A stretch of DNA of 64,000 nucleotides, from contig CM077599.1 of NCBI GenBank assembly GCA_039654915.1, positions 25,419,501 to 25,483,500 on the forward strand. Direction: 5' to 3'. The notes beneath the pieces were generated by a model, which ran no database searches, was not told where the DNA came from, and saw nothing but the letters and a program-made list of their open reading frames with translations. The stretch is from Aquilaria yunnanensis. Its lineage: Eukaryota > Streptophyta > Magnoliopsida > Malvales > Thymelaeaceae. The position numbers and the translations under genes are program-made. Shown piece after piece: positions 3,001-55,289 of the stretch (within the stretch, counting starts at the first letter, position 1; each line of letters opens with the position of its first letter).

Positions 3001-3086
3001 ACGATGACAAGATTCTGCCATTGACTTGCATTGTGGCCGTCAGCTTCCGATGTTTTGCCCTAAACGTACTTATAATTTATGGACAG
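1..3086. other. AT-rich intergenic DNA, no gene seen
   Basis: Long A/T runs and stop codons in all frames. The longest open frames here are under 100 codons, low in complexity and resemble nothing I know. No terminal repeats or transposon domains were recognised. Confidence 0.6.
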
Positions 3087-3095
3087 ATTCTGTTG

Positions 3096-4408: not shown

Positions 4409-4417
4409 ATTCTGTTG

Positions 4418-5313: not shown

Positions 5314-5322
5314 TTTCCTTTA

Positions 5323-6537: not shown

Positions 6538-6546
6538 CTTTCTTTA

Positions 6547-27086: not shown

Positions 27087-27319
27087 ACTGGAGCGTAACT
27101 GGGAGGAAAAGTGAAAGGTGCTGACTGCTTCAAAACATAATTTCATTGGACAGCGATTAACCACATCTTGCCAAGAGGAATACCATTACAGGGTGGACAA
27201 ACCATTGCCTTCTATCTGCATAACCGCGTGGAAGTCCCCACCAACCTAAGGGCTCCTCAAATTTTCCAAATTCACTCGGCGTCTCTCTGCTTCCTGTTTC
27301 CATCAAGCCCAGCTTCACG

Positions 27320-27333
27320 TATATATATATAAG
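27320..27333 (+). promoter_or_regulatory. TATA box of the NAC gene
   Basis: An alternating TATATATATATAAG stretch lies about 80 bp before the NAC start codon, a normal plant TATA-to-ATG distance. The AT repeat could also be chance in this AT-rich DNA. Confidence 0.55.
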
Positions 27334-27411
27334 TATGGGGTCTTCAGGACTTTCAAGAGCGTACGAACAAAGATCTACAAACAAGAAAATAAACTCAAAG
27401 AGCTTTCTTTA

Positions 27412-37598: not shown

Positions 37599-37603
37599 AT
37601 AGG
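37599..37603. repeat. Target-site duplication (left), ATAGG
   Basis: ATAGG directly before the LTR start TGTGGCAACG. The identical pentamer follows the other LTR at 55285-55289. Confidence 0.9.
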
Positions 37604-40600
37604 TGTGGCAACGTGCGGGCCGTTTCTGGAGTCGCCACCAATCGGTTTCACCTAGGTCGATTGGTCACCTTAAAATTGGTCTGCGAGAGTTCGGGGATCG
37701 GGAGTACGGTTACGTTAAAACAACTTTGTTAAAACGCCCAAAAATTGGCACCTTAGTTGATTTTAATTTTGTTTTGCTTTGCTTTTAAATAATTCTCAGT
37801 TAATTTTCAAAATTAGAAATTTTAACTGGATTAGTCGAAATGTGGATTTTTAAATTAATTAATTTGTATGAAATTTTATACTTCCGAACCATGGACTCTG
37901 CCGAGTCATTTGAACACGGAAGATTTTTGATTCCGAACCATGGACTCTGCCGAGTCATTTGGACACGGAATTTGGTGAACTTTTAAATAACTTAATCCAT
38001 ATCGTAAATATGGATTTTTATCTTTGTGTTTATTTATATTCAATTAAAAAAAAAGTTGATATTTTCCAAACCGTAGATCCTGCCGGATCATCCGGATATG
38101 GAAATTAATAAAATTTAATTTAACTATTAAATTTTTGTAGCATCAATATTTTAAAGTCTACGGTTAACTAAAATAATTTGATCCATAATTTCTAAAATTT
38201 AGAGCAATTCTTTAGATAAAATTTTTTTATTGATATTAAAAAAAAATTAGAGTTTAATAAGAGATGAAAAATTTTAATAAATTATTATTTTTTTATAACG
38301 AAGAAAATATGTATAAGTTCAAAGCACATATAATTTTTTTAATAATATAACGTAAAGAAAAATCCAACTCAAAATTAAAATAAAATAAAATAATTTTATT
38401 ACTTATAATAAAAAATTATTTTAATGCTAGATTTATATAATTAAATTCCTGCAATAACATATGGTTCACGTAAAGGTAGAGTGAGCAAAACAAACAAATA
38501 AGAAAATAAAATAAAATAAAATAAAAAATAATATATTAATAGACCAGACATAGTGCAGCAAGATAATTAGTTACGAAAATTGGTTAATCACAATTTGTCC
38601 CATAATAATTAGATAAAATTACATTTTTACCCTCATATTTCAGAAATATAAACTTTACCTCTTTACTTTTTAAGACAACTGATAGTAACTTTTTTAAAAT
38701 TTTAATTTTTAATGTTACGGTAGCTATATTTTTTAATTTCAATTAATTTTTAGTTAAGGGACATTTCAAATTATAAATTTTTTAATATGAAAACTACAGT
38801 ATTATTGTTTATGTCAATTAACCAAAAATACCACAAAGATTGAAATTAACTGAAAATAGATAATACAATCTAAATTAAAATTTTAGAGGTTATTATCAAA
38901 ATGTATTAAAAAGATTTAGCGGCAAACTATATATTTTTAAAATAAGAGGGGTGAAAATGTAATTTTACATAAAACCTTAAGAATAAATTGTAATTACTGC
39001 AATAAAATATGTACAAGAACGAGTCTTTTATAAAAAAACTTATATAGATATTTACAATTATAGCCTTATCAATATTTAGTTACTAAAAATCACATATGGA
39101 AAGATTTCACCACGCAAGTCTTTTGATGTATAAGTATATTGCAATGTACGTATGTAGATGGTCCATATTAGTATACAAGTATGTATGTTTCACAACAATA
39201 TAAATATTTATTTATTTATTTATTTTGATATTCTGAATAATCCAAGTTTATAAAGAGAGATATTTTTTATTTATATCAATGCTGATAGCATTCCGGTCAG
39301 GCATTAAAACCATATAAAAATAATTCCGATTATTAGAGGGTCGAAACAAACCAAGGATAAACAAAGAAAGGACAAACAATAAATATAAACAAAAAAACTT
39401 GCTGTCCATGCTTAATCTGCAAAGAAAACAACATTAGTGACTTGGATGGATAAAATAAGGAAGATCAAGGACTAAACGAGGGTTTTACCCAAAAAAAATT
39501 TTGACTTTTTCAACGTCTGTTATCTTCTTTGTTTTTTTGTTTCTTTCGTTTTTGTTTCTGACGATAGGGGCGACGTAGCGAGGCGGAGGTAGGCGACGGT
39601 GCGCGCGAGGAGGGGCAGCAGGGAGGCAACTTGACGGCAGGGGGCATGACGCGGAGAGCAGAGGGCGCGACGAGGTGACTGAGAGCAGGAGGAGGGGACC
39701 TAGGCGCGGAGGAGCCCGAAACGTGGGCGCGGCACGGCGGAACACGAAGCGAAGAGCAGAGGGCGCGACTGGAGCTGACGGGAGCACGGCGGCAGGCGAG
39801 CAGCAAGGGAGATCGGAGGTGAGCGACGGGAGCAGAGGCGAACGGAGGAGCTGAGAGGCGGTGGTGGCGTCGGCTGGAGTGGAGGCACGCGGAAGCGTCG
39901 GGCAGCAGGGGAGAAGGCTGGAATTACGACAGCACGGAGGTCGTGACGGATCTCGGCGACAACGGCGTGGCGGACGTGGGAACGTGACAGGGAGCTATGG
40001 AGGTGGACGAAAAAATGCGTCAGTCGAGGGAGAGAGCCTCCAGAGAGAATCCAGAGGAGGGGGAAGAGTCGGGCACCAGAGTGGAGTGTCGGCAGGGGAA
40101 GCGAGGAGAGGGAGAGAGAGTTACCAGAGCGAGACAGCGAAGAGAGAGAGTGCTGAAAGGGTGAGAGAGAGAGGGGAGCAAAGGAGAGAGAGAGAGTTTG
40201 CGAGAAGAGAGAGAGAGAAGGAGAAAACAGAGAGGGAGAAGGAGAGCAGATGAGAGAAGGAGAGCGTGAGAGTTCGCGAGAGAAGTGAGAGAGGTTCAGA
40301 GCTCAGATGTGTGTGTGTGTGTTTGAGTCTGTGGGAGAGAGAAGAAAGAGAGAGAAGCGTAGCAGAGAGCTCGCCCCCAAGGAGAAGCTGAGCCAGCCCC
40401 CCGTTTAATAATCCCCCTCAGAAGGATCGAGAAGGGAGATATTTTTAATTTTTTATTATTATTTATTTATTTTATTATATATATATATTTTTTATTACAT
40501 ATATATTTTTGATTCGATTTGATTTGATTTTTAACTAATTAATTTTTTTAATTAATTAATAATAATTTTTTTTAAACACACACAAACAGATATATATATT

Positions 40601-40756
40601 ATTATATTTTGACTAAACTTATAAAACAAAAATGCCCCCTCCTAAATTAATTTTTATCAATAAATATATAATATTATTTTTAATTTAATTAATTAATATT
40701 TTTTTAATTAATTAATAATTTTTTTTATGAAGGTCGGACGAAATTGGGTGTCAACA
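37604..40756 (-). repeat. 3' LTR (element sense) of the giant retrotransposon
   Basis: Matches 52132-55284 throughout; by eye I find only two differences, both single-base length changes in T-runs (near 38331 and 40700). On the plus strand it starts TGTGGCAACG and ends GGTGTCAACA. A GC-rich block at about 39560-40400 grades into GA-rich simple repeats. Open frames there (39485-39787, 39510-39806, 39700-39888 on minus; 39861-40253 on plus) overlap in many frames, are low-complexity and are not credible genes. Confidence 0.95.
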
Positions 40757-40770
40757 GCTGCCCCCCTTTG
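40757..40770 (-). other. Polypurine tract
   Basis: Sense strand CAAAGGGGGGCAGC immediately before the 3' LTR start TGTTGACACC. This is the expected primer site for plus-strand DNA synthesis and matches the form seen in Tat/Ogre elements. Confidence 0.85.
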
Positions 40771-40859
40771 CATGCTTCATGGGACATGATGTATGCAAAG
40801 TAGTTACCAAATTTCGTCCGGCTTAGCTAGGCATTGAGAACCTTCTCGCCGCCTAAACT

Positions 40860-42790
40860 ATGTGGTTAAGGAAAATTTTTTAGAGCCTCTGCGATAAGAA
40901 CTCTCCTATCGTTGAAGGGAAAATTTGATAATTTTGAGGTTAAGGGTCCTACCTTAGAACCTCGACGATAGGAACTCTCCTATCGTTTGAAGGAAAATTG
41001 TTTGAATGAGGTTAAGGGTCCTACCTTAGAACCTCGACGATAAGAACTCTCCTATCGTTTGAAGGAAAATTGTTTGAATGAGGTTAAGGGTCCTACCTTA
41101 GAACCTCGACGATAGGAACTCTCCTATCGTTTGAAGTAAAATTGATTGTTTTGAGGTTAAGGGTCCTACCTTAGAACCTCGACGATAGGAACTCTTCTAT
41201 CGTTTGAAGTAAAATTGATTGTTTTGAGGTTAAGGGTCCTACCTTAGAACCTCGACGATAGGAACTCTCCTATCGTTTGAAGGAAAATTGATGATTTTGA
41301 GGTTAAGGGTCCTACCTTAGAACCTCGACGATAGGAACTCTCCTATCGTTTGAAGGAAAATTGATGATTTTGAGGTTAAGGGCCCTACCTTAGAACCTCG
41401 ACGATAGGAACTCTCCTATCGTTTGAAGGAAAATTGATGATTTTGAGGTTAAGGGTCCTACCTTAGAACCTCGACGATAGGAACTCTCCTATCGTTTGAA
41501 GTAAAATTGATTGTTTTGAGGTTAAGGGCCCTACCTTAGAACCTCGACGATAGGAACTCTCCTATCGTTTGAAGGAAAATTGATGATTTTGAGGTTAAGG
41601 GTCCTACCTTAGAACCTCGACGATAGGAATTCTCCTATCGTTTGAAGGAAAATTGATGATTTTGAGGTTAAGGGCCCTACCTTAGAACCTTGACGATAGG
41701 AAAGGTTCTATCGTTGTAAGATGGACTGAATGATTGATTGTTTGTTTGAGGTTTAAGGAAAGGTCCTTAGAACCTCTAACGATAGGAAAGGTTCTATCGT
41801 TGTAAGATGGACTGAATGATTGATTGTTTGTTTGAGGTTTAAGGAAAGGTCCTTAGAACCTCTAACGATAGGAAAGGTTCTATCGTTGTAAGATGGACTG
41901 AATGATTGATTGTTTGTTTGAGGTTTAAGGAATGGTCATTAGAACCTCTAACGATAGGAAAGGTTCTATCGTTGTAAGATGGACTGAATGATTGATTGTT
42001 TGTTTGAGGTTTAAGGAAAGGTCCTTACAACCTCTAACGATAGGAAAGGTTCTATCGTTGTAAGATGGACTGAATGATTGATTGTTTGAGGTTAAGGAAC
42101 TCTCCTTAGAACCTCGACGATAGGAACTCTCCTATCGTTGCAAGTTTGAGGTTAAGGGCCCTACCTTAGAACCTCTGCGATAAGAACTCTCTTATCGTTT
42201 GAAGAAAAATTGATGATTGATTGTTTGAGGTTTAAGGAACTCTCCTTAGAACCTCGAAGATAGGAACCCTCCTATCGTTGAAAGTTTGAGGTTAAGGGCC
42301 CTACCTTAGAACCTCTGCGATAAGAACTCTCTTATCGTTTGAAGAAAAATTGATGATTGATTGTTTGAGGTTTAAGGAACTCTCCTTAGAACCTCGACGA
42401 TAGAAACTCTTCTATCGTTGAAAGTTTGAGGTTAAGGGCCCTACCTTAGAACCTCTACGATAAGAACTCTCTTATCGTTTAAAGAAAAATTGATGATTTT
42501 GAGGTTAAGGGTCCTACCTTAGATCCTCGACGATAGGAACTCTCCTATCGTTTGAAGGAAGATTAATGATTTTGAGGTTAAGGGTCCTACCTTAGAACCT
42601 CGACGATAGGAACTCTCCTATCGTTTGAAGGAAAATTGATTGTTTTGAGGTTAAGGGTCCTACCTTAGAACCTCGACGATAGGAACTCTCCTATCGTTTG
42701 AAGGAAAATTGATGATTTTGAGGTTAAGGGTCCTACCTTAGAACCTCGATGATAGGAACTTTCCTATCGTTGAAAATTTGATTGAATAAG
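40860..42790. repeat. Tandem array of about 26 hairpin-forming repeats in the 3' region of the retrotransposon
   Basis: Units of about 73 bp (with a variant of about 86 bp at 41690-42090) share GAGGTTAAGG, CCTTAGAACCTC and a short palindrome. The main palindrome is CGATAGGA / ACTC loop / TCCTATCG. Variants keep pairing: CGATAAGA with TCTTATCG (near 42176, 42317, 42460) and CGATAGAA with TTCTATCG (near 42400). The second type is ACGATAG … CTATCGT around a GAAAGGTT loop. Some units have a single mismatch. Tandem arrays just upstream of the 3' LTR are known for Tat/Ogre elements and can seed satellites. Function of the hairpins is unknown. Confidence 0.9.
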
Positions 42791-43333
42791 GCTTAAGGAA
42801 CTCTCCTTAGAACCTCGAGCAAAATTTATATGAAAGCAATTAGAATTGGAATAATTTTCTTCGAAAGTGTGAATTTGCATAATAGGCGAATGCGAAACTT
42901 TAGATTTCGATAAAATGAGTGAATCTTGATGATGACAATATCGCTAACAAATTATGTAAAGGGAACGGATGTTTGGAATCAATATCCAAGGTTCATCTAA
43001 TATTTTCTTCAGTAAATGTAGATTCGCTTGAGAGATATGTCATCCAAATAAGGTTGAAGCTTAACTACCCCAAAATGTTATGCCTAGTAGACCTAATAGG
43101 ATGCGTCTCAAGAGTAATAAAAATTACTCTTTACTCAGCCATTCCAACCTAAAGGCATTGTCCCATGGTTTTAATATCAGCATGGACGAAACTATCTTAT
43201 AAGATAACGAAATTCCCTGAAAAGAAAAACTGAAACGCGAAAGAAAATGCTGATAATAAAACTAAAGGACAAAAAAAACGGATCAGATCGCTTCTTTCTT
43301 CCACAATATTTCAACAGGGTTAGTAGAGGACTA
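42791..43333. other. 3' flank of the LOG gene
   Basis: Sense-strand trailer between LOG and the hairpin array. No further gene. LOG transcripts would end here or read on into the 3' LTR, which should contain the element's polyadenylation signal. Confidence 0.5.
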
Positions 43334-43963
43334 TTATGGGATCGAACTGTTCGGGAAAGACTGTCGCGTCCAGTCTATCTGAATCATTGCTGGATCTGGT
43401 TCAGGAACAAAAGCTTGTATTTTATCTAGCAATTCTTCAGCAGTTGTTGCGGATATTATGATTCGCTGTGCCACTCTTGATATAAAATTCTTCTGCATAG
43501 CATAATCCATAAAAGCTATCGGACCTGTAAAGAAATTGTTAACATTTAAAAGCCCAATGGGTTTCTTATGCAAATTAAGTTGGGCCATGGAAGCAATTTG
43601 AAAGACTTCTCCCAATGTGCCAAAACCACCTGGTAGAGCGATAAAAGCATCAGCATTTAAAAGCATTTGTAACACACGCTCTTGTAAATTTTTAACCACT
43701 AATTCTTCTCCAATCGTGCCCCCAGAAATAAATTTCAGAGGTCCAGGGATAATGCCCAGAACTTGACTTCCTCCTAGAGATGCTGCTGATGCTACACCTC
43801 CCATTAATCCGACACTACCTCCTCCATAAACTAAATGTATTTTTCGCTCAGCTAATACTCTACCCAAATGGTTGGCTGCTTTTAAATACTCTTCATCTTT
43901 TCCTGGAAAAGCCCCAGAAAATACACAAATACTTCGGGATTTACGAGTTGGGGTTTTCTCCAT
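43334..43963 (-). CDS. LOG-like: LOG-type cytokinin riboside 5'-monophosphate phosphoribohydrolase, intronless, retrotransposon-borne
   Basis: 209 residues from the ATG at 43963. LOG enzymes cleave cytokinin riboside monophosphates to active free-base cytokinins and ribose 5-phosphate in the cytosol. Visible: SICVFSGAFPGKDEEY at residues 11-26, the glycine-rich YGGGSVGLMGGVA at 46-58, QERVLQM at 94-100 keeping the conserved Arg but not the usual following Lys, the signature PGGFGTLGE at 111-119 with the catalytic-region Glu, and KPIGLLNVNNFF at 134-145. Length fits the family (about 200-230). Plant LOG genes normally have several introns; this one has none, so it may be a retrocopy or an old transfer. 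The open frame extends 20 codons upstream to 44023, but that part overlaps the TATA box, so I choose 43963. It lies in sense orientation inside the retrotransposon, downstream of the virus-like genes, with its own promoter. Enzyme activity is inferred; the changed QERV segment leaves some doubt about substrate. Confidence 0.93.
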   Translation of the reverse strand: MEKTPTRKSRSICVFSGAFPGKDEEYLKAANHLGRVLAERKIHLVYGGGSVGLMGGVASAASLGGSQVLGIIPGPLKFISGGTIGEELVVKNLQERVLQMLLNADAFIALPGGFGTLGEVFQIASMAQLNLHKKPIGLLNVNNFFTGPIAFMDYAMQKNFISRVAQRIIISATTAEELLDKIQAFVPEPDPAMIQIDWTRQSFPNSSIP

Positions 43964-43993
43964 TCCTATCCTTACCCTTGTGAGAAAAGAGGA

Positions 43994-44004
43994 TATATTT
44001 ATAG
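43994..44004 (-). promoter_or_regulatory. TATA box of the LOG gene
   Basis: Sense strand CTATAAATATA, about 31 bp upstream of the start codon. This predicts a very short 5' leader. The same type of box (CTATAAATG) precedes the two intact virus-like genes. Confidence 0.7.
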
Positions 44005-44039
44005 AGATGAAGAGATAAGGCAATAATTTTATTTTTCAA

Positions 44040-44525
44040 GAATGGATACATTATTGCCAGCTATTCATAGTAGTCACGGGTATGACTCTGGTCAGGTATG
44101 GGTACACTATCGTTAAAAGAGGAGGAAAATTTTCAAAATAGCTGCTAGCATGTACAGTAGTTGCGACTGTAGCTTATGTCAGGAGTAGGTACATGATTGT
44201 CGGATGAGAAGGAAAATTTCAAAAGTGGCAGGTATATACAGTAGTCATAATTATAGCTCATGTCAGGAGTGGGTACATTATGGGAGGAAAATTTCAAAAG
44301 CGTCAGCTAGCATGTACAGTATCGTGACTATGCCTTATGTCAAGAGTGGATACATTATTGCTGAAAGAGGAGGAAAATTTCAAAAGCGACAGCTAGCACG
44401 TACAGTAATCGTGACTTTGGTTCATGTCAGGAGTGGATACATTATTACCAAAAGGGGAGGAAAATTTCAAAAGCGACAGCTAGCACGTACAGTAATCGTG
44501 ACCTTGTTCCGTCTTCTACTGGCTT
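44040..44525 (-). promoter_or_regulatory. Tandem repeats in the LOG upstream region (promoter module)
   Basis: About six units of roughly 58-88 bp. On the plus strand each has an anchor like GGATACATTATTGCC, then AGAGGAGGAAAATTTCAAAA, CAGCTAGCACGTACAGTA, TCGTGAC and TCATGTCAGGAGTGG. Single copies of the same module (AAGTACATTATTGCC with its neighbours) lie upstream of the virus-like copies at about 45249 and 46080. So LOG and the virus-like genes have related upstream sequence, amplified in front of LOG. Confidence 0.75.
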
Positions 44526-44552
44526 TGCGTCCAGTAACGGCTTCAATGCTTT

Positions 44553-45101
44553 CTATGAATCAGTGATTTGCATCTCATCTAGCTTTTTCACAAACTGGCA
44601 AACAGGGTCGTTTAGGGTCAGATTCCCAAGACTGTAACGTTCTCGTTCTTTTTGGAGAATTATCCATAATCCAACAACCTCAAATTGCACTATTCCGCAA
44701 GAATGCGCTTCAAGAACCTCTCGGATATCTTCCAGAGATTCCTTACGCAAGCCATTCTTGATGAATTTTATTCTATCATTACGATTTCTGGTGATCACTC
44801 CTGGAGAACGACATTTATTGCCGCAAATCCACCATCCACAATTGTGACAGACGCCTAGCCTCTTTGCTCTTCTCTTTTTGGCATAAACGCTTTTACCAAA
44901 GCCGGGCATACGGGGAAAGAACGCATCTGGAACTTCACCAGCCGAACGAACTTTAGCTTCGATTAGCCACCGCACATTATCAGGAATGCCTTTGTGCATA
45001 AATAGTCGGAATCGTTCACATCTAGCTTGATAAACCTTTTTAAGAACATTTATTGGGAAAGAAGGGAAATATTTTCGTAGAGCGGAAAGAGAAGGCTCCA
45101 T
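44553..45101 (-). CDS. Virus-like nucleic-acid-binding protein (Betaflexiviridae NABP-like), copy 1, intact
   Basis: 182 residues from the ATG at 45101, the start that aligns with copy 2 (an in-frame ATG five codons upstream at 45116 is possible). Residues 66-82 (PGFGKSVYAKKRRAKRL) form an arginine/lysine-rich stretch followed directly by a zinc-finger-like C-x2-C-x4-C-x3-C (Cys 85, 88, 93, 97). The combination G-x-S-x-[YF]-A-[KR]3-R-[AR]-[KR] plus adjacent cysteines, then a block like DRIKFIKNG, is the hallmark of the small cysteine-rich nucleic-acid-binding proteins of vitiviruses and carlaviruses. In those viruses the protein binds nucleic acid and in several cases suppresses RNA silencing. 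This copy is longer: an extra N-terminal 65 residues (RKYFPSFPINVLKKVYQARC, NVRWLIEAKV) and a C-terminal 60. It is intronless, has a TATA box, and lies inside the retrotransposon in sense orientation. Family assignment is from motif pattern, not a search. Confidence 0.8.
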   Translation of the reverse strand: MEPSLSALRKYFPSFPINVLKKVYQARCERFRLFMHKGIPDNVRWLIEAKVRSAGEVPDAFFPRMPGFGKSVYAKKRRAKRLGVCHNCGWWICGNKCRSPGVITRNRNDRIKFIKNGLRKESLEDIREVLEAHSCGIVQFEVVGLWIILQKERERYSLGNLTLNDPVCQFVKKLDEMQITDS

Positions 45102-45208
45102 TGATGAATGAGGCATTTAAGAGAAAAAGAAAGAAATTAGTGATTGTAGGAAATGGAAATAACTGAATTTGGGAGTTATGGAGTACCGTATCCAGAAGGA
45201 AGAACACG

Positions 45209-45217
45209 CATTTATAG
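45209..45217 (-). promoter_or_regulatory. TATA box of NABP-like copy 1
   Basis: Sense strand CTATAAATG about 108 bp before the start codon, in a stretch shared with copy 2 (GAACACGCATTTATAG on the plus strand). Confidence 0.65.
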
Positions 45218-45365
45218 TGATGAAAGGATAATGCGTTTATTACACTTACGGAAGTAAGTACATTATTGCCAAAAGAAAAGACAAATGACAACTTAAATGT
45301 ACAGCAATCATGACTGTCGTTCTCATCTTCTACCGATTTATGTCCATTAATGACTTTAATGCCAT

Positions 45366-45914
45366 CTATGAATCGGGGACTCGCTTCTCATCCAGTTTTC
45401 TTACAAACTGGCAAACAGGATCGTTTAAAGTCAGATTCCCAAGACTGTAACGGTCTTGTTCTTTACAGAAAGTTATCCATAAATCGATAATTTCATATTG
45501 CACAAATGCGCAAGAATGCGCTTCAAGAGTCCCCCGGATATCCTCCAGAGATTCATTACGCAGGCCACTCTTGATAAATTTTCTTTTATCTTCGCGATTT
45601 TTGGTAATCATCCCTGTGGACCGGCATTTAGTGTCGCAAATCCATCTTCCGCAATTATGACAAACACCTAGCCTCTTTGCTCTTCGCTTCTTGGCATAAG
45701 CGCTTTTACCAAAGCCGGGCATACGGGGAAAGAACGCTTCTGGAACTTCACCAGCTGAACGAACCTTAGCTTCAATTAGCCACCGCACATTGTCAGGAAT
45801 GCCTTTGTGCATAAAGACTCTAATCCTTTCACATCTAGCTTGGTAAATCATTTTAAGAACATTTATTGGGATGGAAGGAAAGTATTTTCGCATGGCGGAA
45901 AGAGTAGAATCCAT
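45366..45914 (-). CDS. Virus-like nucleic-acid-binding protein (Betaflexiviridae NABP-like), copy 2, intact
   Basis: 182 residues, colinear with copy 1 and by eye about 78% identical (around 40 substitutions, no gaps). The basic stretch KKRRAKR, the four cysteines (CHNCG … C … C), the N-terminal NVRWLIEAKVRSAGEVP block and the C-terminal RYSLGNLTLNDPVCQFV block are unchanged, while many changes are conservative (Ile/Val, Lys/Arg, Asp/Glu). That pattern suggests selection on the protein after duplication. Upstream is a TATA box (46034-46042) and the module shared with copy 1 and LOG. Spacing between starts of copies 1 and 2 is 813 bp, so each is a promoter-plus-ORF unit. Nucleic-acid binding is inferred; whether it acts on RNA silencing, on element RNA packaging, or on host transcription is unknown. 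Confidence 0.8.
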   Translation of the reverse strand: MDSTLSAMRKYFPSIPINVLKMIYQARCERIRVFMHKGIPDNVRWLIEAKVRSAGEVPEAFFPRMPGFGKSAYAKKRRAKRLGVCHNCGRWICDTKCRSTGMITKNREDKRKFIKSGLRNESLEDIRGTLEAHSCAFVQYEIIDLWITFCKEQDRYSLGNLTLNDPVCQFVRKLDEKRVPDS

Positions 45915-46033
45915 TGATAAAAGAAGAATTTGAGAGAAGAGATGAAGAAATCAGTTATTGTAGGAAACTGAAATAACCGATTATGAGAGTCAGAGAGTAT
46001 TACATCCGCTACTTAACCGGAAAGAAGAACACG

Positions 46034-46042
46034 CATTTATAG
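46034..46042 (-). promoter_or_regulatory. TATA box of NABP-like copy 2
   Basis: Sense strand CTATAAATG about 120 bp before the copy 2 start codon, in the same context as for copy 1. Confidence 0.65.
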
Positions 46043-46202
46043 CGATGAAAGGATAACGTGTTAATTACGCTTACAGGAACAAGTACATTATTATCCAAAG
46101 GTAATGCAAATTTTTCAAATATGACAAATCGTATGTACAATAATTGTGATTGTGGCTCACATCTTCCACTGGCTTTACGTCCAGTAACGGCATTAACGGC
46201 TT

Positions 46203-46754
46203 CTATGAGTCGAGGATTTGCTTGCCATCCAGTTTTCTTACAAGCTGGCAAACAAGGTCGTTTACAGTCAGATTCTCGGGACTGTATCGTTCTCGTTCTT
46301 CATGAAAAATGCTCCATAAACCAAGAAGTTCATGTTGCACGGATCCACAAGAATGCGTCTCAAGAGTCAATTGGATATCATCTAACGAGTCCTTACTCAG
46401 GCCATTCTTAATGAATCGTATTTTATCTTCTCGATTATCAGAGATCATTCCTAAAGAACGACATTTAGTATTACAAGTCCACCTACCACATTTATGGCAG
46501 ACTTGTAATCTTTTCGCTTATCTTTTTCTGGCATAAGAGCTTTTGCCTACACCAGGCATGTGAGACACAAATGCCTCTGGGATTTCACCTGCCAGACGAA
46601 CCTTAGCTTCAATTAACCACCGTACATCTTCAGGTATTCCTTTGTGCATCAGAGCTCTTAATCGTTCGCAGCGAACTCGGTAGATCTTTTTTTTTAGGAT
46701 TTTTATTGGGAGAGAAGGGAAATACTTTGGCAAGGCGGAAAAAGTAGGATCCAT
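46203..46754 (-). pseudogene. Virus-like nucleic-acid-binding protein copy 3, broken by one nonsense codon
   Basis: Same reading frame throughout as copies 1 and 2, with one extra codon in a lysine run near the N-terminus. A TAA at 46518-46520 stands at codon 79, where the other copies have an arginine codon inside the basic stretch, so the product would end before the cysteine cluster. The cysteines (CHKCGRWTC … C) remain readable after the stop. The upstream side keeps the shared GGAGTACCGTATCC motif, but homology fades at about 46870 and no TATA box is visible, so it has probably lost its promoter too. It is the most diverged copy. Confidence 0.85.
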
Positions 46755-46904
46755 TTTCTAGGAGGAAGTAAAAGAAAGAAGGGTTAAAGGAATCAGTTAT
46801 TATGGGCAACTGAGAGAACCGACTTGAGAGTCACGGAGTACCGTATCCGCCGTTTAACCGGAAAAGTAGATCCTACTTCATTTTGATAGATTTTTTTTTT
46901 TTTC

Positions 46905-47260
46905 GTTGATCCAGTCCTCGATTATTGAATCTTTTGTCCGCTTTTGACAAAGTTTCAACGACAATATTTCTTGATGTCTACCTTATCTTTGACCACAGAT
47001 ATCTCTTATCTTGGATGCTGCTAAGCTGGCATCAATCCTATCCTTCCAGGTGTAGTCTCGATTATTGAATCAATTTCCATGCTTTTGACAATATTGTCTA
47101 CTTTATAGTTTTTTTGATATCTGCCTTATCCTTGGCTATAGCTATCTCTTATCTTGGATACTACTAGCTGATGTCAATCCTGTCCTTCCAGGTGTAGTCT
47201 CGATTATTGAATCGATTGCCAGGCTTTTGACATCTTGTCTACCTTATCCTTGAATTCCTG
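46905..47260. repeat. Three tandem repeats of about 125 bp
   Basis: Each unit contains CTCGATTATTGAATC, CTTTTGACA, a CTACCTTAT-type stretch, ATCTCTTATCTTGGAT and (first two) CCTTCCAGGTGTAGT. Non-coding spacer of the retrotransposon. Confidence 0.75.
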
Positions 47261-48204
47261 ATGCGGGTTAGTCCTGCATATTAGCTGTGTATCCAGTGAT
47301 AGATTGGTAAGAGCTGATGACATTGAGACCTCAGCTTATATTGCTGTAGCTGTGCCGTGGATGTGCTTCCCATTTGGTCCTTGTTATGTAAAGGCTATGT
47401 ATGCATGATATGAAATGCATGAATGCAGAGCATGTGTAACTGATGTTTTTTTTTTAATGGATCTGGTCCTTCATGTCTTTGCTTTACTGGATCTTCTTTG
47501 TGATGGCCTTCTTGGACTATCATTGAATCTCTTTATGCTTTCCAGCTTTTGTTCGCTGCCTCAAAAGCCCAACTCTTTTCAAAATCCCATTTTTTTGACT
47601 TGTTCTTGAATTTTTGGCCTCAATTTCTTTAAAGTTGGCCCGCCTCATAATTTATATCTCTTTCGGGTACTCATCCATTTTCATGGATTTGATACCATCA
47701 AAGGCTTATCTTCCAATGTCTCTTTGCCCATTTTCTTGTGGCCGTGCCGACACTTACTTATTCCCAAGTTATAGTCTGAATGATTGCTCTTCCTTGAGCT
47801 CAAGTTTTGATCCATAAGACTTGCCCCCTTGTCTATTGAACTTCTTTGTTGGCAGTACTCCTCTTACGCTTCGTAGAGACTACTTTGCCCCCCTGAATAT
47901 GGTATTTATGTGGATAAAAGGTATCACCTCACCTTTAACAGAAGGTCGAGCATTTCTAGACCTTTGTGATGGCACTTGATCGTAAATCTCTCTTACAAGA
48001 ACCACATCTTCTTAAAGAAAGTCTCAAGCTATCTCCTCACTTTTAAGTCTACACACATTAATGAATAATGGTTTGGCCTTAAAGAAAAACTTTCATCAAT
48101 TTGCAAAGCTTGACAAAGTAATTTACGGTCTTTATTTTTAATTAAAATATCCTGCCACTCTTCCCTTTCCAACTCAAAGACATAAACTGTGCAAGGCAAT
48201 AAGG
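47261..48204. other. Retrotransposon spacer with extra polypurine-tract-like motifs
   Basis: No credible gene. Sense-strand G-runs similar to the true polypurine tract occur at about 47822-47830 (AAGGGGGCAA) and 47884-47893 (AGGGGGGCAAA), and another at about 48619-48627. They may be leftovers of earlier recombination with other element 3' ends. Open frames here are short and unrecognised (for example 48029-48220 -). Confidence 0.45.
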
Positions 48205-48545
48205 TATAAACATGATTCACAAGGATAGCCTTTTAGCTGAATGAGGATGATATCGAGAGGTAACTGTTAGGCGTGAGGAAAATTAAGTTTGAATGTTTTT
48301 TTTTTTGTAGCAGTCTTTTAGCTGAATGAGAATAATATTAAGAGGTAAATATTAGGTCTGAGTAAAGTTAAGTTTGAGTGGTGTGAAAGAAGGGTCTTTT
48401 AATACTACTCGTGAGCAGTATTAAATAAGGTTGAAACATGATTCACAATGATAGTCTTTTAACTGAATGAGGATGTTCGGTTTGAGGAAAGTTAAGTTTA
48501 AGTGGTGTGGAAGAAGAGTCTTTTAATACTACTCGTGAGCATATC
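48205..48545. repeat. Degenerate tandem repeats of about 90-150 bp
   Basis: Repeated ACATGATTCACAA, CTTTTAGCTGAATGAGGATG, AAAGTTAAGTTTGAGTGG and TCTTTTAATACTACTCGTGAG blocks. Confidence 0.65.
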
Positions 48546-48719
48546 TGATTACGGTGAAAAATTCAATAGTGAAGACCTCAAACTTGCCACCTTTTTCAGA
48601 AAGTTAGACCTCATCTGTTGCCCCCCAACTATCATAATCTTTATGTATGCTTGGTTTGAGGGTTGCTTTTGTCTTCTAGACCGCCTTTGCAGGTTTTCAG
48701 TCTAGAATCCATAACTCAC

Positions 48720-49150
48720 TTTTTTTCTTTTTTTTTTTTTTTTTTTTTTTCTAGTTTGAGCCCCTTTTCCTTTTTTTTTTTTTTTGTTTCCCTTTTTCTT
48801 TTTTTGTAAGCTATGGTGATGACATACTTGATAACTCTCTTGAAGTGAGATGACTCAAGTGGCCTTGCTTGCTCGTGCTTGTTCTCAGTCCTTTTTGGTT
48901 TTGAATTTTCCCTTGTTGGCTTTTTGGTGGAAGGGATGAACTTTTTCCTTTTCGGAGTTTTTGTTACAAAGAACCGAGATCATAGCCTTCTTGAAATGAG
49001 ATGATTCAAGTGGCCTTACTTGCTTGTGTTTGCTCTCAGTCTCGCTTTTTTGGTTTTGAATTTTCCCTTGTTGGCTTTTTGATGGAAGGGATGAACTTTT
49101 TCTTTTTTTTTTTTTTTTTGGAGTTTGTGTTGCAGAGAACTGAGAACCTT
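48720..49150. repeat. Poly-T tracts and a two-copy repeat of about 170 bp
   Basis: Long T-runs at 48720-48800 and 49105-49120 (A-runs in sense). A unit with GAGATGACTCAAGTGGCCTT, GTTTTGAATTTTCCCTTGTT and GAAGGGATGAACTTTTTC appears at about 48843 and again at about 48997. The minus-strand open frame 48885-49166 is a lysine/serine-rich artefact of this repeat. Confidence 0.7.
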
Positions 49151-49394
49151 TGCTTGTGTTGAGCATTCATGAGAATTGAGAGACCATTAAAGCCATTTAA
49201 TATGAGAGCTAACTTCTTTGGATTTGGAAGCTAACCCCGGACTTCTTGCAAGGATGTTGATAACCACTGTGAATTCCTTTTGAGGGTTGAGGTGCAACGT
49301 TTGAAATCCTTCTTACTAGATTTGGCAGCACTTTCAAGATCACTACTATCAAATTTTCCTTAACTTTTTATTTTCACCCACGAGTAGTATCATT

Positions 49395-49720
49395 TAGAAA
49401 GCAAAGTATGATGGCAATAATGGATAGTATAATGGAAATGAGTGAGAGATGGATGTAAAAATGGAATTTTTGGTAAGAAGTGGTGGAATGTGTAGGTGTA
49501 ATAATTGAATTTTTGGTAAAAATTGGTAGAATGTGTAGATGTAATAATGGAATTAAAAAGTGGTAGAATGCACACGCAACATCTTTTTGTTAGAGAACAA
49601 AAAGAATTACCGGTTGTCGAAAAAGTAAAGTGTGATAGCAATAATGGATAGTATAATGGCAAAGAGTGTAAAAATGGAAAGTAGTAGAATGCACGCATCA
49701 CATCTTTTTGTTGTACCAGA
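49395..49720. repeat. Short degenerate repeats
   Basis: Repeated GCAATAATGGATAGTATAATGG, GGAATTTTTGGTAA, AGTGGTAGAATGCAC and CATCTTTTTGTT segments. Confidence 0.6.
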
Positions 49721-49849
49721 AAAAGAATAGCAGGTGTCCATTTAACAAAGACTACACCCTAGATTCTGGACTAAATCTAGGAGATTTTTACTATTAAATT
49801 ACTTTTGCAAGTTTTCAAAGATACAAGTTTATTCAAAGGATTCCCTGTC

Positions 49850-51185
49850 ATTCAAAAGTATGTGCGGACTATTAGGTCAGATCTGACTTGGAGTCCTTCC
49901 AAAATCAATGTAATTCCAGCTCGAAATCTTCACTTTCATTTACCAATCACATCATGGCCTAGGAATTTAAACTCGACCAACTATTGGACCTTGAGTTTTA
50001 GTGCCACACAATGCCCAATTGAACATTTTATATTTGGCGTTTGGGTCATTCCAACTTGGAAGAGGAGGCTACTTGATCTTTGTTACCGTTGGTATGGGTG
50101 GTAGCAGGTTTGTAACTTGTGAAAATTGAATCGACTTGAGTAGCCTTTCTTCCCATGAGTGGTATGTGGCACTGATGAGGGAGCCTTGAAGATTACAGTC
50201 TCAATAGGATATCCTTTCACTTGTAACTTGAGTGGTATTGGATCATAGGACTTGGAGATGATGTTTTGGATAGCTCCGGTTCTTTCATTGAAACATCCTT
50301 CAATTGAAGAATCGACCAGCTTTTCTGTTTTGATTCCAAATTCGATCTTTTCTCCAGATAAGACCACATTTGAAAAGCTACTTGAAGTGTTCCCAACTAG
50401 TTTTTCATGAAATGGTCTATTTAATGCCTGGGTAAACAGGGTGATCAATTCTCTTTCTATCATAGATGGTTAAACTTGTGCGGCTAAGTGTCTCCACCTT
50501 TATGCGTATTCCTTAAAGGTCTCTTGTTCCTTCTTCTCTATATTCTGGAGAATTTGGTGATCTAGGGGTAAGTCTATAACATGCTCACAGTTACTGATTG
50601 AGAGCTTAAACGAGGTCATTCCAGGCTTTGATGTTTCTCAGACCTTGACTTAGATACCATTGTAGTGCTGACTTTATAAGATTTTTTTTGAAAAAGTGCT
50701 ATCAACACTTTCTCGTCTCTTGTGAGTGGTTGTATTTTCCTTAGAAACAGCGTAATATAATTGATGGGATAACTTATTCCATCATATTTCACAAAGTCAG
50801 GTATCTTAAAGTATGAGGGAATCACAACATCTGGTATCAAGCAAAGATTGTTCATCAAAAGAGATAAAGTGCCTCTTTCAATGGTCCGCAGTCTCTTTTC
50901 TATGATCTTGAGTTTTTTTAGTATTCTCTTCTTCTTTAAGCAGGAGCTTCTTTTCTTCAAAAATTGGACTGTGCCTTAGATGAATGATATCAGATAGACC
51001 TGAGTCATGAAAGAGCTTCTCTTGAACTGAGACCTGTTCTGAGTGAATTGGGGAGGATAGGTTAGATCTTGTGGGTCATTGACGGGGACTTGGGTCGCTA
51101 ACTCCATTAACTGTTTCATTTGCTCAGCCATACTTTCTATATTGGACTTCATATCTATGAGACGTCCTTTGGTTTGTTCTGCCAT
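49850..51185 (-). pseudogene. Decayed Ty3/gypsy (Tat-type) gag
   Basis: Minus-strand translation in shifting frames gives an N-terminal stretch (MKSNIESMAEQMKQLMELAT), the gag core IPSYFKIPDFVKYDGIS and LFLRKIQPLTRDEKVLIALF, EKKEQETFKEYA followed by RWRHLAAQV, then MIERELITLFTQALNRPFHE and VGNTSSSFSNVVLSGEKIEF. Near 49950 the linker GHCVALKLKVQ is still readable. At least two stops and several frameshifts make it non-coding. This fixes the element's sense strand and its Ty3/gypsy Tat affiliation. No protease or RT follows. Confidence 0.85.
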
Positions 51186-52110
51186 TAATCTTATTTGGAG
51201 CCGAGCTGGATATCGGTGTTGATGGCCAATTTTACCGTTTCTAAAGTGAGATTCATTTTATTAAACTTTATATGCAATTGATTGATGTGATGGATGTATG
51301 TAATACAAAATGAGATTATGTTTTTATCAGACTTTGTATGCACATGATTGATGTAATGGATGCATGCAATAAGTGAGTTTGATTATCAACTATCGTAGAA
51401 CTTCGAGATTTTTAGTTGTCATTTAGAAAGATCAAAAGTTATTACAGTTTGGTGCGTGGTTTTGATGCATGACGAAAAATTGTACAAAACAGAAGTATAA
51501 CAAAAGAATAACAAGGTTAACAACGAGTTAGATATCAATTAATAACACATGAACTATTACGAAAAGAAGTCTGAGCCATAAATATAAAACACAAAGAAAC
51601 CCAAGGATAAGGTAACAAAAATGGCATAACAATAACATGCTTATAGTGTTGGTAAATGGTAGAAATTCTATGGTCAGTTCTATGGTTAAGTGGGGAATTC
51701 TATATGCATAAGGTGGCTTATCAAAAAGGCCAGGGATAGTTCCCGAATCCCGTCACTAAATTATAGTGACAGCCCGATTCCTTACCCTCTAGGGTTAATG
51801 TAAGGAATGGATTAATTCGAGTCGTAGCTTTTCGTGGGCCCATGCAGAGACTAACCGTCTCAGAAGGCAATACACTACTTTGCTACTTTGAAACCGGTGA
51901 AGGCTTGGAGACCGTGGCCTCACAAGGACAGCAACACCAATTCCGCTTAGAAAGAATCGTGTTTGATTTAAGGAAGCTCGGGTATAGAGCTTCATTTTGT
52001 GAATGCATTATGCATGTTTAGAATAAGTAAATATAACATATAAATTCACATAAAAATAAACAAAACAGAACAAAATAAATCAACTTTTAGGCTTGACTCA
52101 CTAACCAGGG
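51186..52110 (-). other. Retrotransposon leader (between primer site and gag)
   Basis: Non-coding leader of about 0.9 kb; contains a direct repeat (TTATGCATGATTGATGTAATGG-type stretch near 51280 and 51340). Long leaders are usual in Tat/Ogre elements. Confidence 0.6.
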
Positions 52111-52128
52111 TCCCCAGTGGAGTCGCCA
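52111..52128 (-). other. Primer-binding site
   Basis: Sense strand TGGCGACTCCACTGGGGA, three bases inside the 5' LTR. This form is the tRNA-Arg-type primer site described for Ogre/Tat elements. Confidence 0.85.
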
Positions 52129-52131
52129 AGC

Positions 52132-55100
52132 TGTGGCAACGTGCGGGCCGTTTCTGGAGTCGCCACCAATCGGTTTCACCTAGGTCGATTGGTCACCTTA
52201 AAATTGGTCTGCGAGAGTTCGGGGATCGGGAGTACGGTTACGTTAAAACAACTTTGTTAAAACGCCCAAAAATTGGCACCTTAGTTGATTTTAATTTTGT
52301 TTTGCTTTGCTTTTAAATAATTCTCAGTTAATTTTCAAAATTAGAAATTTTAACTGGATTAGTCGAAATGTGGATTTTTAAATTAATTAATTTGTATGAA
52401 ATTTTATACTTCCGAACCATGGACTCTGCCGAGTCATTTGAACACGGAAGATTTTTGATTCCGAACCATGGACTCTGCCGAGTCATTTGGACACGGAATT
52501 TGGTGAACTTTTAAATAACTTAATCCATATCGTAAATATGGATTTTTATCTTTGTGTTTATTTATATTCAATTAAAAAAAAAGTTGATATTTTCCAAACC
52601 GTAGATCCTGCCGGATCATCCGGATATGGAAATTAATAAAATTTAATTTAACTATTAAATTTTTGTAGCATCAATATTTTAAAGTCTACGGTTAACTAAA
52701 ATAATTTGATCCATAATTTCTAAAATTTAGAGCAATTCTTTAGATAAAATTTTTTTATTGATATTAAAAAAAAATTAGAGTTTAATAAGAGATGAAAAAT
52801 TTTAATAAATTATTATTTTTTTATAACGAAGAAAATATGTATAAGTTCAAAGCACATATAATTTTTTTTAATAATATAACGTAAAGAAAAATCCAACTCA
52901 AAATTAAAATAAAATAAAATAATTTTATTACTTATAATAAAAAATTATTTTAATGCTAGATTTATATAATTAAATTCCTGCAATAACATATGGTTCACGT
53001 AAAGGTAGAGTGAGCAAAACAAACAAATAAGAAAATAAAATAAAATAAAATAAAAAATAATATATTAATAGACCAGACATAGTGCAGCAAGATAATTAGT
53101 TACGAAAATTGGTTAATCACAATTTGTCCCATAATAATTAGATAAAATTACATTTTTACCCTCATATTTCAGAAATATAAACTTTACCTCTTTACTTTTT
53201 AAGACAACTGATAGTAACTTTTTTAAAATTTTAATTTTTAATGTTACGGTAGCTATATTTTTTAATTTCAATTAATTTTTAGTTAAGGGACATTTCAAAT
53301 TATAAATTTTTTAATATGAAAACTACAGTATTATTGTTTATGTCAATTAACCAAAAATACCACAAAGATTGAAATTAACTGAAAATAGATAATACAATCT
53401 AAATTAAAATTTTAGAGGTTATTATCAAAATGTATTAAAAAGATTTAGCGGCAAACTATATATTTTTAAAATAAGAGGGGTGAAAATGTAATTTTACATA
53501 AAACCTTAAGAATAAATTGTAATTACTGCAATAAAATATGTACAAGAACGAGTCTTTTATAAAAAAACTTATATAGATATTTACAATTATAGCCTTATCA
53601 ATATTTAGTTACTAAAAATCACATATGGAAAGATTTCACCACGCAAGTCTTTTGATGTATAAGTATATTGCAATGTACGTATGTAGATGGTCCATATTAG
53701 TATACAAGTATGTATGTTTCACAACAATATAAATATTTATTTATTTATTTATTTTGATATTCTGAATAATCCAAGTTTATAAAGAGAGATATTTTTTATT
53801 TATATCAATGCTGATAGCATTCCGGTCAGGCATTAAAACCATATAAAAATAATTCCGATTATTAGAGGGTCGAAACAAACCAAGGATAAACAAAGAAAGG
53901 ACAAACAATAAATATAAACAAAAAAACTTGCTGTCCATGCTTAATCTGCAAAGAAAACAACATTAGTGACTTGGATGGATAAAATAAGGAAGATCAAGGA
54001 CTAAACGAGGGTTTTACCCAAAAAAAATTTTGACTTTTTCAACGTCTGTTATCTTCTTTGTTTTTTTGTTTCTTTCGTTTTTGTTTCTGACGATAGGGGC
54101 GACGTAGCGAGGCGGAGGTAGGCGACGGTGCGCGCGAGGAGGGGCAGCAGGGAGGCAACTTGACGGCAGGGGGCATGACGCGGAGAGCAGAGGGCGCGAC
54201 GAGGTGACTGAGAGCAGGAGGAGGGGACCTAGGCGCGGAGGAGCCCGAAACGTGGGCGCGGCACGGCGGAACACGAAGCGAAGAGCAGAGGGCGCGACTG
54301 GAGCTGACGGGAGCACGGCGGCAGGCGAGCAGCAAGGGAGATCGGAGGTGAGCGACGGGAGCAGAGGCGAACGGAGGAGCTGAGAGGCGGTGGTGGCGTC
54401 GGCTGGAGTGGAGGCACGCGGAAGCGTCGGGCAGCAGGGGAGAAGGCTGGAATTACGACAGCACGGAGGTCGTGACGGATCTCGGCGACAACGGCGTGGC
54501 GGACGTGGGAACGTGACAGGGAGCTATGGAGGTGGACGAAAAAATGCGTCAGTCGAGGGAGAGAGCCTCCAGAGAGAATCCAGAGGAGGGGGAAGAGTCG
54601 GGCACCAGAGTGGAGTGTCGGCAGGGGAAGCGAGGAGAGGGAGAGAGAGTTACCAGAGCGAGACAGCGAAGAGAGAGAGTGCTGAAAGGGTGAGAGAGAG
54701 AGGGGAGCAAAGGAGAGAGAGAGAGTTTGCGAGAAGAGAGAGAGAGAAGGAGAAAACAGAGAGGGAGAAGGAGAGCAGATGAGAGAAGGAGAGCGTGAGA
54801 GTTCGCGAGAGAAGTGAGAGAGGTTCAGAGCTCAGATGTGTGTGTGTGTGTTTGAGTCTGTGGGAGAGAGAAGAAAGAGAGAGAAGCGTAGCAGAGAGCT
54901 CGCCCCCAAGGAGAAGCTGAGCCAGCCCCCCGTTTAATAATCCCCCTCAGAAGGATCGAGAAGGGAGATATTTTTAATTTTTTATTATTATTTATTTATT
55001 TTATTATATATATATATTTTTTATTACATATATATTTTTGATTCGATTTGATTTGATTTTTAACTAATTAATTTTTTTAATTAATTAATAATAATTTTTT

Positions 55101-55284
55101 TTAAACACACACAAACAGATATATATATTATTATATTTTGACTAAACTTATAAAACAAAAATGCCCCCTCCTAAATTAATTTTTATCAATAAATATATAA
55201 TATTATTTTTAATTTAATTAATTAATATTTTTTAATTAATTAATAATTTTTTTTATGAAGGTCGGACGAAATTGGGTGTCAACA
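52132..55284 (-). repeat. 5' LTR (element sense) of the giant retrotransposon
   Basis: Sense strand starts TGTTGACACCCAATTTCGTC and ends CGTTGCCACA. The CT-rich sense block (about 54,930 down to 54,700) follows an AT-rich stretch with TATATATATA near 55001-55012, so the element promoter and start site probably lie there (inference). Same non-gene open frames as the other LTR (54014-54316, 54039-54335, 54229-54417 minus; 54390-54782 plus). Confidence 0.95.
55001..55014 (-). promoter_or_regulatory. Putative TATA box of the retrotransposon promoter
   Basis: TATATATATATA in the AT-rich part of the LTR, in sense about 50 bp before a change to GC/CT-rich sequence. Position is plausible for the U3/R boundary but other AT repeats lie nearby. 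Confidence 0.35.
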
Positions 55285-55289
55285 ATAGG
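55285..55289. repeat. Target-site duplication (right), ATAGG
   Basis: Identical to 37599-37603 on the other side. Confidence 0.9.

Follow-up and report, generated by a model that had tools for sequence, protein, structure and literature searches.

Background

Extra open reading frames (ORFs) are well known in plant long terminal repeat (LTR) retrotransposons and are mostly without known function. The closest described systems to the element reported here, which occupies positions 37604–55284 of a 64,000-nucleotide stretch of Aquilaria yunnanensis DNA (that whole stretch is called the window, and lies on contig C7 of an 842,125,765-base assembly in 345 contigs), are LTR elements of Citrus sinensis, C. 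clementina and Populus trichocarpa whose reverse transcriptase (RT)-based consensus sequences contain a YgdH/LOG domain (PMC9289625), a finding which that paper calls in line with Steinbauerova et al. 2011. The same paper describes Phalaenopsis Tat/Ogre-like elements that carry, with gag-pol, an AlkB/2-ODD m6A demethylase. Ogre elements in general have a second RNase H domain (aRH) between RNase H (RH) and integrase (INT), shared with the Retand lineage, split gag-PR and RT-RH-INT ORFs and, in 57% of elements, an ORF with a plant mobile domain (PMD) (PMC6317226). In that survey, by Neumann et al., extra ORFs were counted only from 250 codons, so genes of the size of the cargo described below would have been passed over. 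Retand elements have an antisense TRP28 ORF between pol and the 3' LTR in 97% of clusters, and LTRs of 315–1,194 bp in the clusters tabulated (PMC11963269).

The Aquilaria family resembles the Citrus and Populus elements in that a LONELY GUY (LOG)-type domain lies inside a Ty3/gypsy element with RT, and Citrus gene models found here pair LOG with a gene for a protein like the nucleic-acid-binding proteins (NABPs) of carlaviruses. It differs in that section 12 of PMC9289625 has no NABP cassette, no test of selection on LOG and no pol-less derivative; the words "nucleic acid binding" are absent from that paper's main text. With the Phalaenopsis elements it shares a giant Tat-clade structure and an added enzyme that is retained and copied, but the enzyme is a different one, and here the cargo survives in pol-less copies too. 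The initial annotation of this DNA, made from its letters alone, knew of no element that carries LOG with viral-type NABP genes; LOG in plant LTR retrotransposons was in fact already published (PMC9289625), whereas no report of NABP genes in retrotransposons was found in the open-licence literature searched. "Lonely guy" and "cytokinin" are absent from the main text of PMC11963269 and of PMC7264820 (NABP was not sought there), and PMC3136472, on the replicase of an endogenous flexivirus, lacks the words "nucleic acid binding" in the part of its text covered.

A young pol-less element of the Ogre type

The element in the window is very young, lacks pol and belongs to an abundant Ogre-type family (Ty3/gypsy, Tat clade); in pol-less copies like it, LOG and two NABP genes, NABP1 and NABP2, are under purifying selection while gag and a third NABP gene, NABP3, decay. 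Inspection of the LTRs, target-site duplication (TSD), primer binding site (PBS) and polypurine tract (PPT) shows that 37604–55284 is a single LTR retrotransposon on the minus strand, with paired LTRs, TSD, PBS and PPT all in place. Its parts other than the cargo genes are as follows (L049 is a piece of a pol-bearing copy described below).

37599..37603, no strand, left TSD ATAGG, from flank comparison
37604..40756, minus strand, 3' LTR, from alignment of the LTR pair
40757..40769, minus strand, PPT region AAAGGGGGGCAGC, adjoining the 3' LTR and directly before it in the element sense
40880..42818, minus strand, 3' tandem array of 73/86/140-bp units, from repeat analysis
46900..49760, minus strand, non-coding region with short repeats, partly or wholly present in all nine further copies
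49741..49816, minus strand, 76-bp remnant of the gag-PR ORF end and the sequence following it, the alignment ending there in 10/10 pol-less copies
50327..51300, minus strand, decayed gag-PR relic with broken frames and stops, 73% identical in DNA to the intact L049 gag-PR ORF
51663..52131, minus strand, leader, 92% identical to the leader of the pol-bearing copy
52110..52128, minus strand, PBS TGGCGACTCCACTGGGGAC, 3 bases (GCT) after the 5' LTR
52132..55284, minus strand, 5' LTR, matching the 3' LTR save two 1-base indels
55285..55289, no strand, right TSD ATAGG, from flank comparison

Read along the minus strand the order is 5' LTR, GCT, PBS, leader, gag relic, non-coding region, NABP3 (broken), NABP2, NABP1, LOG, tandem array, PPT and 3' LTR, with all the cargo genes in the element sense. 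The LTRs are 3,153 bp long and align over 3,154 columns with 0 substitutions; together with the perfect ATAGG duplication, this bears out the recent insertion that the initial annotation had claimed. Substitution rates for LTR dating are 1.3e-8 to 3e-9 per site per year, and because the pair has zero substitutions these rates set a 95% upper bound of 37,000–159,000 years on the age of the window copy. The PBS, which presumably fits the 3' end of a plant tRNA-Arg, as expected of the Ogre lineage, recurs at the equivalent position in all nine further copies, K2, K4 and K5 showing a one-base change. Neither Pfam on the stop-to-stop pieces of the interior nor tblastn on 45000–52300 found RT, RNase H or integrase, which agrees with the absence of pol noticed earlier.

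Copies of the family in the genome

An LTR query gave 5,296 candidates, of which 40 were scored; many lie as pairs 13–21 kb apart, and nine paired copies, K1–K9, were taken by LTR match for comparison. All nine have LOG, NABP genes, the non-coding region and the leader in the window order, plus the array palindromes. The gene order is complete in eight of them, K9 having NABP1 and NABP3 without NABP2; three NABP genes, counting the broken one, are thus present in nine of the ten compared copies and two in K9. All nine have perfect 5-bp TSDs that are mutually different and none of which is ATAGG (ATAAT, AAACC, ATGGT, AATAA, ATGGG, ATCAT, AACAA, GAATC and GGCCT), and their LTR pairs differ by 0, 0, 1, 2, 5, 0, 0, 0 and 0 substitutions, respectively. 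The initial annotation had suggested looking for just such copies, with the same gene order and other duplications.

A 30-mer from LOG occurs exactly 1,505 times (752+753) in the 842 Mb, and its reversed control 0 times; a 17.7-kb element at every such site would come to 26.6 Mb or 3.2% of the genome, an illustration and not a measurement. The best 150 of 8,238 NABP1 candidates are all full length and open, 140 of them identical in protein, and the best 150 of 3,662 LOG candidates are likewise all full length and open; these are best-first lists and therefore show abundance, not the fraction intact. The LOG 30-mer sites and the two candidate lists rule out an interior that is unique in the genome.

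Some copies lie in clusters. On C2, NABP1 at 24037338, 24058644 and 24079878 and LOG at 24038491, 24059797 and 24081031, all on the same strand with ~21.3-kb spacing, mark a tandem array of three elements, with RT sites at 24053027 and 24074261. At C1:85352917–85361920 (L005–L007), three LTRs within ~6 kb, one of them inverted, lie with inner LTR fragments in a rearranged or nested cluster.

The pol-bearing form and the loss of pol

One copy that does carry pol, K15 (C3, ~80222908–80246052), was read in part, as pieces L049 and L050. ORF1 of L049 matches DUF7745 (4.5e-55) and also PMD (3.2e-8), the latter at 33.6 bits and so just under the cut-off of 34.9. The gag-PR ORF (2407–5886) matches Retrotrans_gag (5.7e-12) and has a G-patch, and after ~200 bases, which would correspond to the short intron region of Ogre elements, the pol ORF (6089–9523) includes RT, RNase H, a second RNase H (RVT_3), a zinc-binding domain and the integrase core in one frame. 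RT_RNaseH is at 415–517 and RVT_3 at 582–692; the latter is the aRH, the domain that marks the Tat clade, and it lies between RH and INT, as in the Ogre lineage. From this domain order and the split ORFs it follows that the window copy belongs to an Ogre-type family, as had been proposed from the window alone, whose fuller form carries ORF1, gag-PR, RT-RNaseH-aRH-INT and the cargo. Further likenesses to the Ogre lineage are the G-patch, the 5-bp TSDs of the family, its LTRs of 2.8–3.2 kb and its 3' tandem array, and the DUF7745/PMD-like ORF upstream of gag may be another. The family differs in its cargo, LOG and NABP genes that have their own TATA-like sequences, and in the retention of this cargo by pol-less copies. 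The Retand lineage was ruled out by the LTR length of 3,153 bp and by the lack of a TRP28 (PF04195) match in the interior's two longest antisense ORFs, the only two scanned; one of these has a DUF1836 match of 1.6e-4, below its cut-off.

K15 has the same array, a LOG gene 97.9% identical in DNA to that of the window and an NABP1 protein identical to that of the window. An RT 30-mer from L049 occurs exactly 327 times (168+159; control 0), and on the first 30.6 Mb of C1, for which the RT and LOG site lists are both complete, 14 of the 15 RT sites have LOG 7.0–7.9 kb downstream on the same strand, where 0.02 would be expected. The claim that the cargo replaces pol is therefore wrong for the family, since gag-PR, pol and cargo stand together in L049/L050 and at these RT sites, and that of a non-autonomous family survives only in part: the window copy is non-autonomous, but the family has a pol-bearing form that also carries the cargo. 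The RT-linked LOG sites are 14 of the 100 LOG sites on that part of C1; the other 86 may be pol-less or have a changed RT.

The window copy is a pol-less deletion derivative, and its type has lost ORF1 and pol by shared deletions. All ten pol-less copies (the window and K1–K9) align to the L049 leader as far as position 532 and resume at ~2449–2459, and ten of ten carry the fragment that ends at L049 5942–5945. A longer gag relic (to ~3449, or 3353 in K8) is present in seven of the ten and a shorter one in three. Stops number 3–5 in eight of the relics; the short ones of K4 and K5 have no stop and are disrupted instead by deletion and a shift of frame. Searches of the 5' pieces of the ten copies, from the 5' LTR side to the NABP genes, gave no match to ORF1 or pol. 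The window relic is ~59–69% identical in protein to the first 354 residues of the 1,159-residue L049 gag-PR, with broken frames and 4 stops, which makes good the earlier description of a decayed gag; on its own its Retrotrans_gag match in Pfam is marginal (E 0.029), and one gag piece searched against a protein database gave 8 candidates, none significant. These copies are thus non-autonomous in the usual sense, no functional gag-pol being found (pol was sought in the 5' pieces), yet they are mobile, as their differing TSDs show.

The LOG and NABP cargo genes

The initial annotation had four sense ORFs, three of them intact, and this is what we find:

43334..43963, minus strand, LOG, single-exon gene for a 209-aa cytokinin riboside 5'-monophosphate phosphoribohydrolase-like protein, from open frame and profile matches
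44553..45116, minus strand, NABP1, intact gene for a 187-aa carlavirus-NABP-like zinc-finger protein, from open frame and profiles
45366..45914, minus strand, NABP2, intact gene for a 182-aa carlavirus-NABP-like zinc-finger protein, from open frame and profiles
46203..46757, minus strand, NABP3, pseudogene with an in-frame stop, of which P0002 is an intact relative

The LOG gene product is predicted to be a LONELY GUY-type cytokinin-activating enzyme. It matches PF03641 (1.1e-28, 100 bits; cut-off 27), the family profile TIGR00730 above its cut-off (145 bits; 96) and the Arabidopsis structure 2a33 (3.4e-50); its score with the NCBIfam equivalog NF058542 (95 bits) is below the cut-off of 300. 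The conserved LOG arginine, which has a catalytic role, is kept as R96. The sequence PGGxGTxxE, named as the LOG motif in PMC11593424, is kept as PGGFGTLGE.

NABP1 scores 26.6 bits with Viral_NABP and 21.9 bits with Carla_C4, against gathering scores of 23 and 20.9, and NABP2, at 25.5 and 24.7 bits, is above both as well; 58 of 63 aligned proteins match each of the two profiles at E<=0.001. The proteins are basic, and the motif C-x2-C-x4-C-x3-C is present in 17/17 NABP1 and 15/16 NABP2 copies. They are like the carlavirus nucleic-acid-binding (cysteine-rich) proteins in having a basic stretch followed by a zinc-finger core, and unlike them in length (182–187 aa, with long stretches at both termini that the match does not cover) and in being encoded in a retrotransposon, not an RNA virus. 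The cysteine-rich protein of the carlavirus CVB is a transcription factor that induces hyperplasia and a weak silencing suppressor (PMC12172455). In a tree of 27 rows NABP1, NABP2, P0001 and P0002 form one group (support 100/98), and multiplication of NABP therefore looks local; NABP1 and NABP2 differ by dS 0.467 and dN 0.114 (ratio 0.245). The AlphaFold model of NABP1 (mean pLDDT 58.5) is too poor for use, and 7 pattern matches to NABP in IMG/VR viral contigs were none of them confirmed.

The stretches upstream of the cargo genes probably contain their promoters, to judge from the following TATA-like sequences and repeats:

43991..44004, minus strand, TATA-like sequence upstream of LOG, 41 bases before the ATG
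44116..44502, minus strand, 87-bp tandem repeats upstream of LOG, a putative enhancer, partly common to the NABP1 and NABP2 upstream regions
45205..45217, minus strand, TATA-like CTATAAATGCGTG upstream of NABP1, from sequence match
46030..46042, minus strand, TATA-like CTATAAATGCGTG upstream of NABP2, from sequence match

Among other copies with the stretch whole, TATAAAT is found <=200 bases upstream of NABP2 in 16/16 and of NABP1 in 15/15 (two NABP1 copies are cut), and the LOG TATA-like sequence is 41 bases before the start codon at 29/29 loci with a full LOG, which include the window copy and at least two pairs that are one same copy each. The NABP1 and NABP2 upstream stretches are 71% identical, and in a four-sequence comparison blocks of them recur upstream of LOG (E 2e-6 and 4e-15). 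Each copy has 1 to 7 of the LOG upstream repeat cores where the stretch is whole, the 0 of L025 reflecting a cut piece.

Selection on the cargo

Selection was counted on LTR-chosen copies only, with the window included and broken copies dropped beforehand. The pooled nonsynonymous/synonymous ratios, from pairs that are not independent, are 0.133 for LOG (9 copies), 0.219 for NABP1 (8) and 0.363 for NABP2 (7). Between the window and K4 the nonsynonymous and synonymous differences are 9 to 29 in LOG (binomial P 8e-12), 14 to 17 in NABP1 (8e-5) and 39 to 36 in NABP2 (3e-7). Among diverged copies dN/dS is 0.08–0.31, at a dS of ~0.04–0.23 for LOG, 0.10–0.15 for NABP1 and 0.40–0.50 for NABP2. LOG is open in 17 of 19 copies, NABP1 in all 17 (an intact NABP1 was the ground for choosing ten of these loci, and K2 and K6 are split between pieces) and NABP2 in 15 of 16 (K8 is cut by the end of its piece), while NABP3 is full length in one of nine, that of K2 ending about ten codons early.

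Copy L029 is a mosaic, with 99.5% identity in LOG and NABP1 and 82% in NABP2. Such identities, with the identical NABP1 of K15, suggest exchange between subfamilies.

The gene pair in other plants

The named relatives among the 120 listed for NABP are from Xanthoceras, Populus, Acer, Citrus and Parasponia, and among the 120 listed of 7,846 for LOG from Xanthoceras, Reevesia, Paulownia, Populus, Diplodiscus and Parasponia. Among the matches listed, Reevesia has at least 35 LOG clusters on 16 chromosomes, as expected of a dispersed family. NABP runs into LOG, in the window order, in the gene models P0078, P0098 and P0101 (Citrus) and P0119 (Acer), and P0118 (Citrus) looks alike; with these four models the pair extends beyond this plant, relatives being the other place where the initial annotation had proposed to look. 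Contigs of equal size, taken as a sign of NABP-LOG linkage for 118 of the 120 listed LOG relatives, gave no clear excess: 3 long ones (2128, 4511 and 8723) against 0.14 expected, and 5 short ones against 2.7.

The tandem array and neighbouring sequences

The array contains a 22-base palindrome, ACGATAGGA-ACTC-TCCTATCGT, with 9-base arms, in 26 copies between window positions 40891 and 42770; it occurs 295 times in nine other copies of the element, 225 of these with perfect arms. In 500 shuffles the covariation score of its paired changes was equalled or exceeded 14 times and the number of double-change pairs 73 times, so that paired changes beyond chance are only suggested. The RNA fold of one array unit has a z of -3.7, and Rfam gave nothing at gathering score on the window or on L049/L050. 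A second PBS core, TGGCGACTCC, lies ~30 bases from the PBS, immediately within the end of the LTR (window 52156–52165 and 37628–37637). LTR positions 1011–1364 match their own reverse complement (69% over ~350 bases), forming an internal inverted repeat.

Outside the element, window 22852–23268 on the plus strand has a zf-RVT match and is probably a remnant of a LINE-type reverse transcriptase, and 27250–27624, also plus, is a NAM/NAC transcription factor first exon, probably of a host gene ~10 kb from the insertion.

Possible roles of the cargo

The likeliest reading, which we consider probable, is that the cargo acts in cis by altering the host cell, through hormone activation and a nuclear zinc-finger protein, while movement is supplied in trans; its activity and expression are predicted from sequence. 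Pol-less copies would be moved in trans by pol-bearing ones, and the cargo, expressed from its own promoters, would pay in cis. LOG would supply the carrier cell with active cytokinin, and NABP may be a nuclear protein that works as a transcription factor, a silencing suppressor or both, by analogy with a carlavirus protein. The two together would promote division or a meristem-like state of the cell, or reduce silencing, and new insertions would then reach more cells and the germ line. On this proposal pol, which acts in trans, is dispensable, and the cargo is not. The numerous pol-bearing copies with cargo strengthen the anatomy of the family and neither raise nor lower the odds on this function.

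Several observations weigh against such a role or against the selection that underlies it. LOG is broken in K5 and L037, and in K15 its frame ends ~12 codons early; NABP2 is broken in L036 and missing from K9; and in K4, K5 and K9 the first codon of the window's NABP1 is replaced by TTG. Some LOG pairs are weak, such as the window with K2 (P 0.03) and with K9 (P 0.005). The NABP1 protein of K15 is identical to that of the window although its gag differs by 27%, and 8 of the 15 top NABP1 hits on the first 30.6 Mb of C1 sit in RT-bearing copies; the two forms thus share or exchange cargo, and some of the selection read from pol-less copies may have taken place in pol-bearing ones. The viral-family profiles align only the basic/zinc-finger core of NABP, 29–80 residues. 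Finally, 101 of 120 listed LOG relatives have LxLxL in their last 25 residues (preceded by a basic residue in 100 of these, under a loose pattern), which we take to be an EAR-like motif; LOG of the window family has a different C-terminus without it, and may therefore have lost part of a function.

The main rival to cis-acting cargo, which we think less probable, is that the cargo serves the replication cycle, NABP as an accessory chaperone, packaging protein or silencing suppressor and LOG as a metabolic or moonlighting helper, selection then being on the RNA and particle and not on host cell growth. The basic NABPs with their nearly invariant cysteine motif would suit such work, carlavirus NABPs do suppress silencing (PMC12172455), pol-less copies have no working gag, and pol-bearing copies carry the cargo too. 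By itself this leaves a cytokinin-activating enzyme with a kept active-site motif unexplained, however, and a helper acting freely in trans should be as dispensable as pol in pol-less copies. It is improbable that LOG and NABP are passive passengers, captured by chance and intact only through a recent burst: plant LTR elements are known to capture genes, the function of the cargo is inferred only, LTR pairs are nearly identical and the youngest copies hold few changes by which selection could be judged, but the low dN/dS between diverged copies, in which gag and NABP3 are broken, and the same gene pair in Citrus and Acer argue otherwise. A domesticated function that benefits the plant and is kept by host selection would account for purifying selection on a gene for a host process, cytokinin activation, but we think it very improbable, since 1,505 LOG 30-mer sites and young LTRs point to selection at the level of the element and so many redundant copies are not readily reached by host selection. 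An artefact, with host genes enclosed between two separate elements or by a duplication in the assembly, can be dismissed, for nothing was found in its favour, the TSD, PBS and PPT frame one unit, as the initial annotation had argued, and nine further copies have a similar interior with different TSDs.

More speculatively, and with considerable doubt, cis-acting cargo could make the element a selfish growth programmer, equivalent to the Agrobacterium T-DNA but chromosomal, that combines a hormone enzyme with a viral-type transcription factor or silencing suppressor under their own promoters, with common upstream repeats that NABP may bind. The carrying cell would divide or stay meristematic, paying the copy in cis so strongly that pol went and the hormone gene stayed. 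The NABP zinc-finger core would then belong to a pool shared with flexiviruses, possibly passed from element to virus.

Significance

A hormone-type and a virus-type gene travel together here in very many copies and are under selection in copies that no longer encode the means to move. The question why extra genes are kept by retrotransposons thereby becomes directly testable, by asking whether cytokinin activation or a viral-type nuclear protein raises transmission. The family bears on the origin of the carlavirus NABP genes, and it is a candidate natural system for a transposable element that manipulates plant development.

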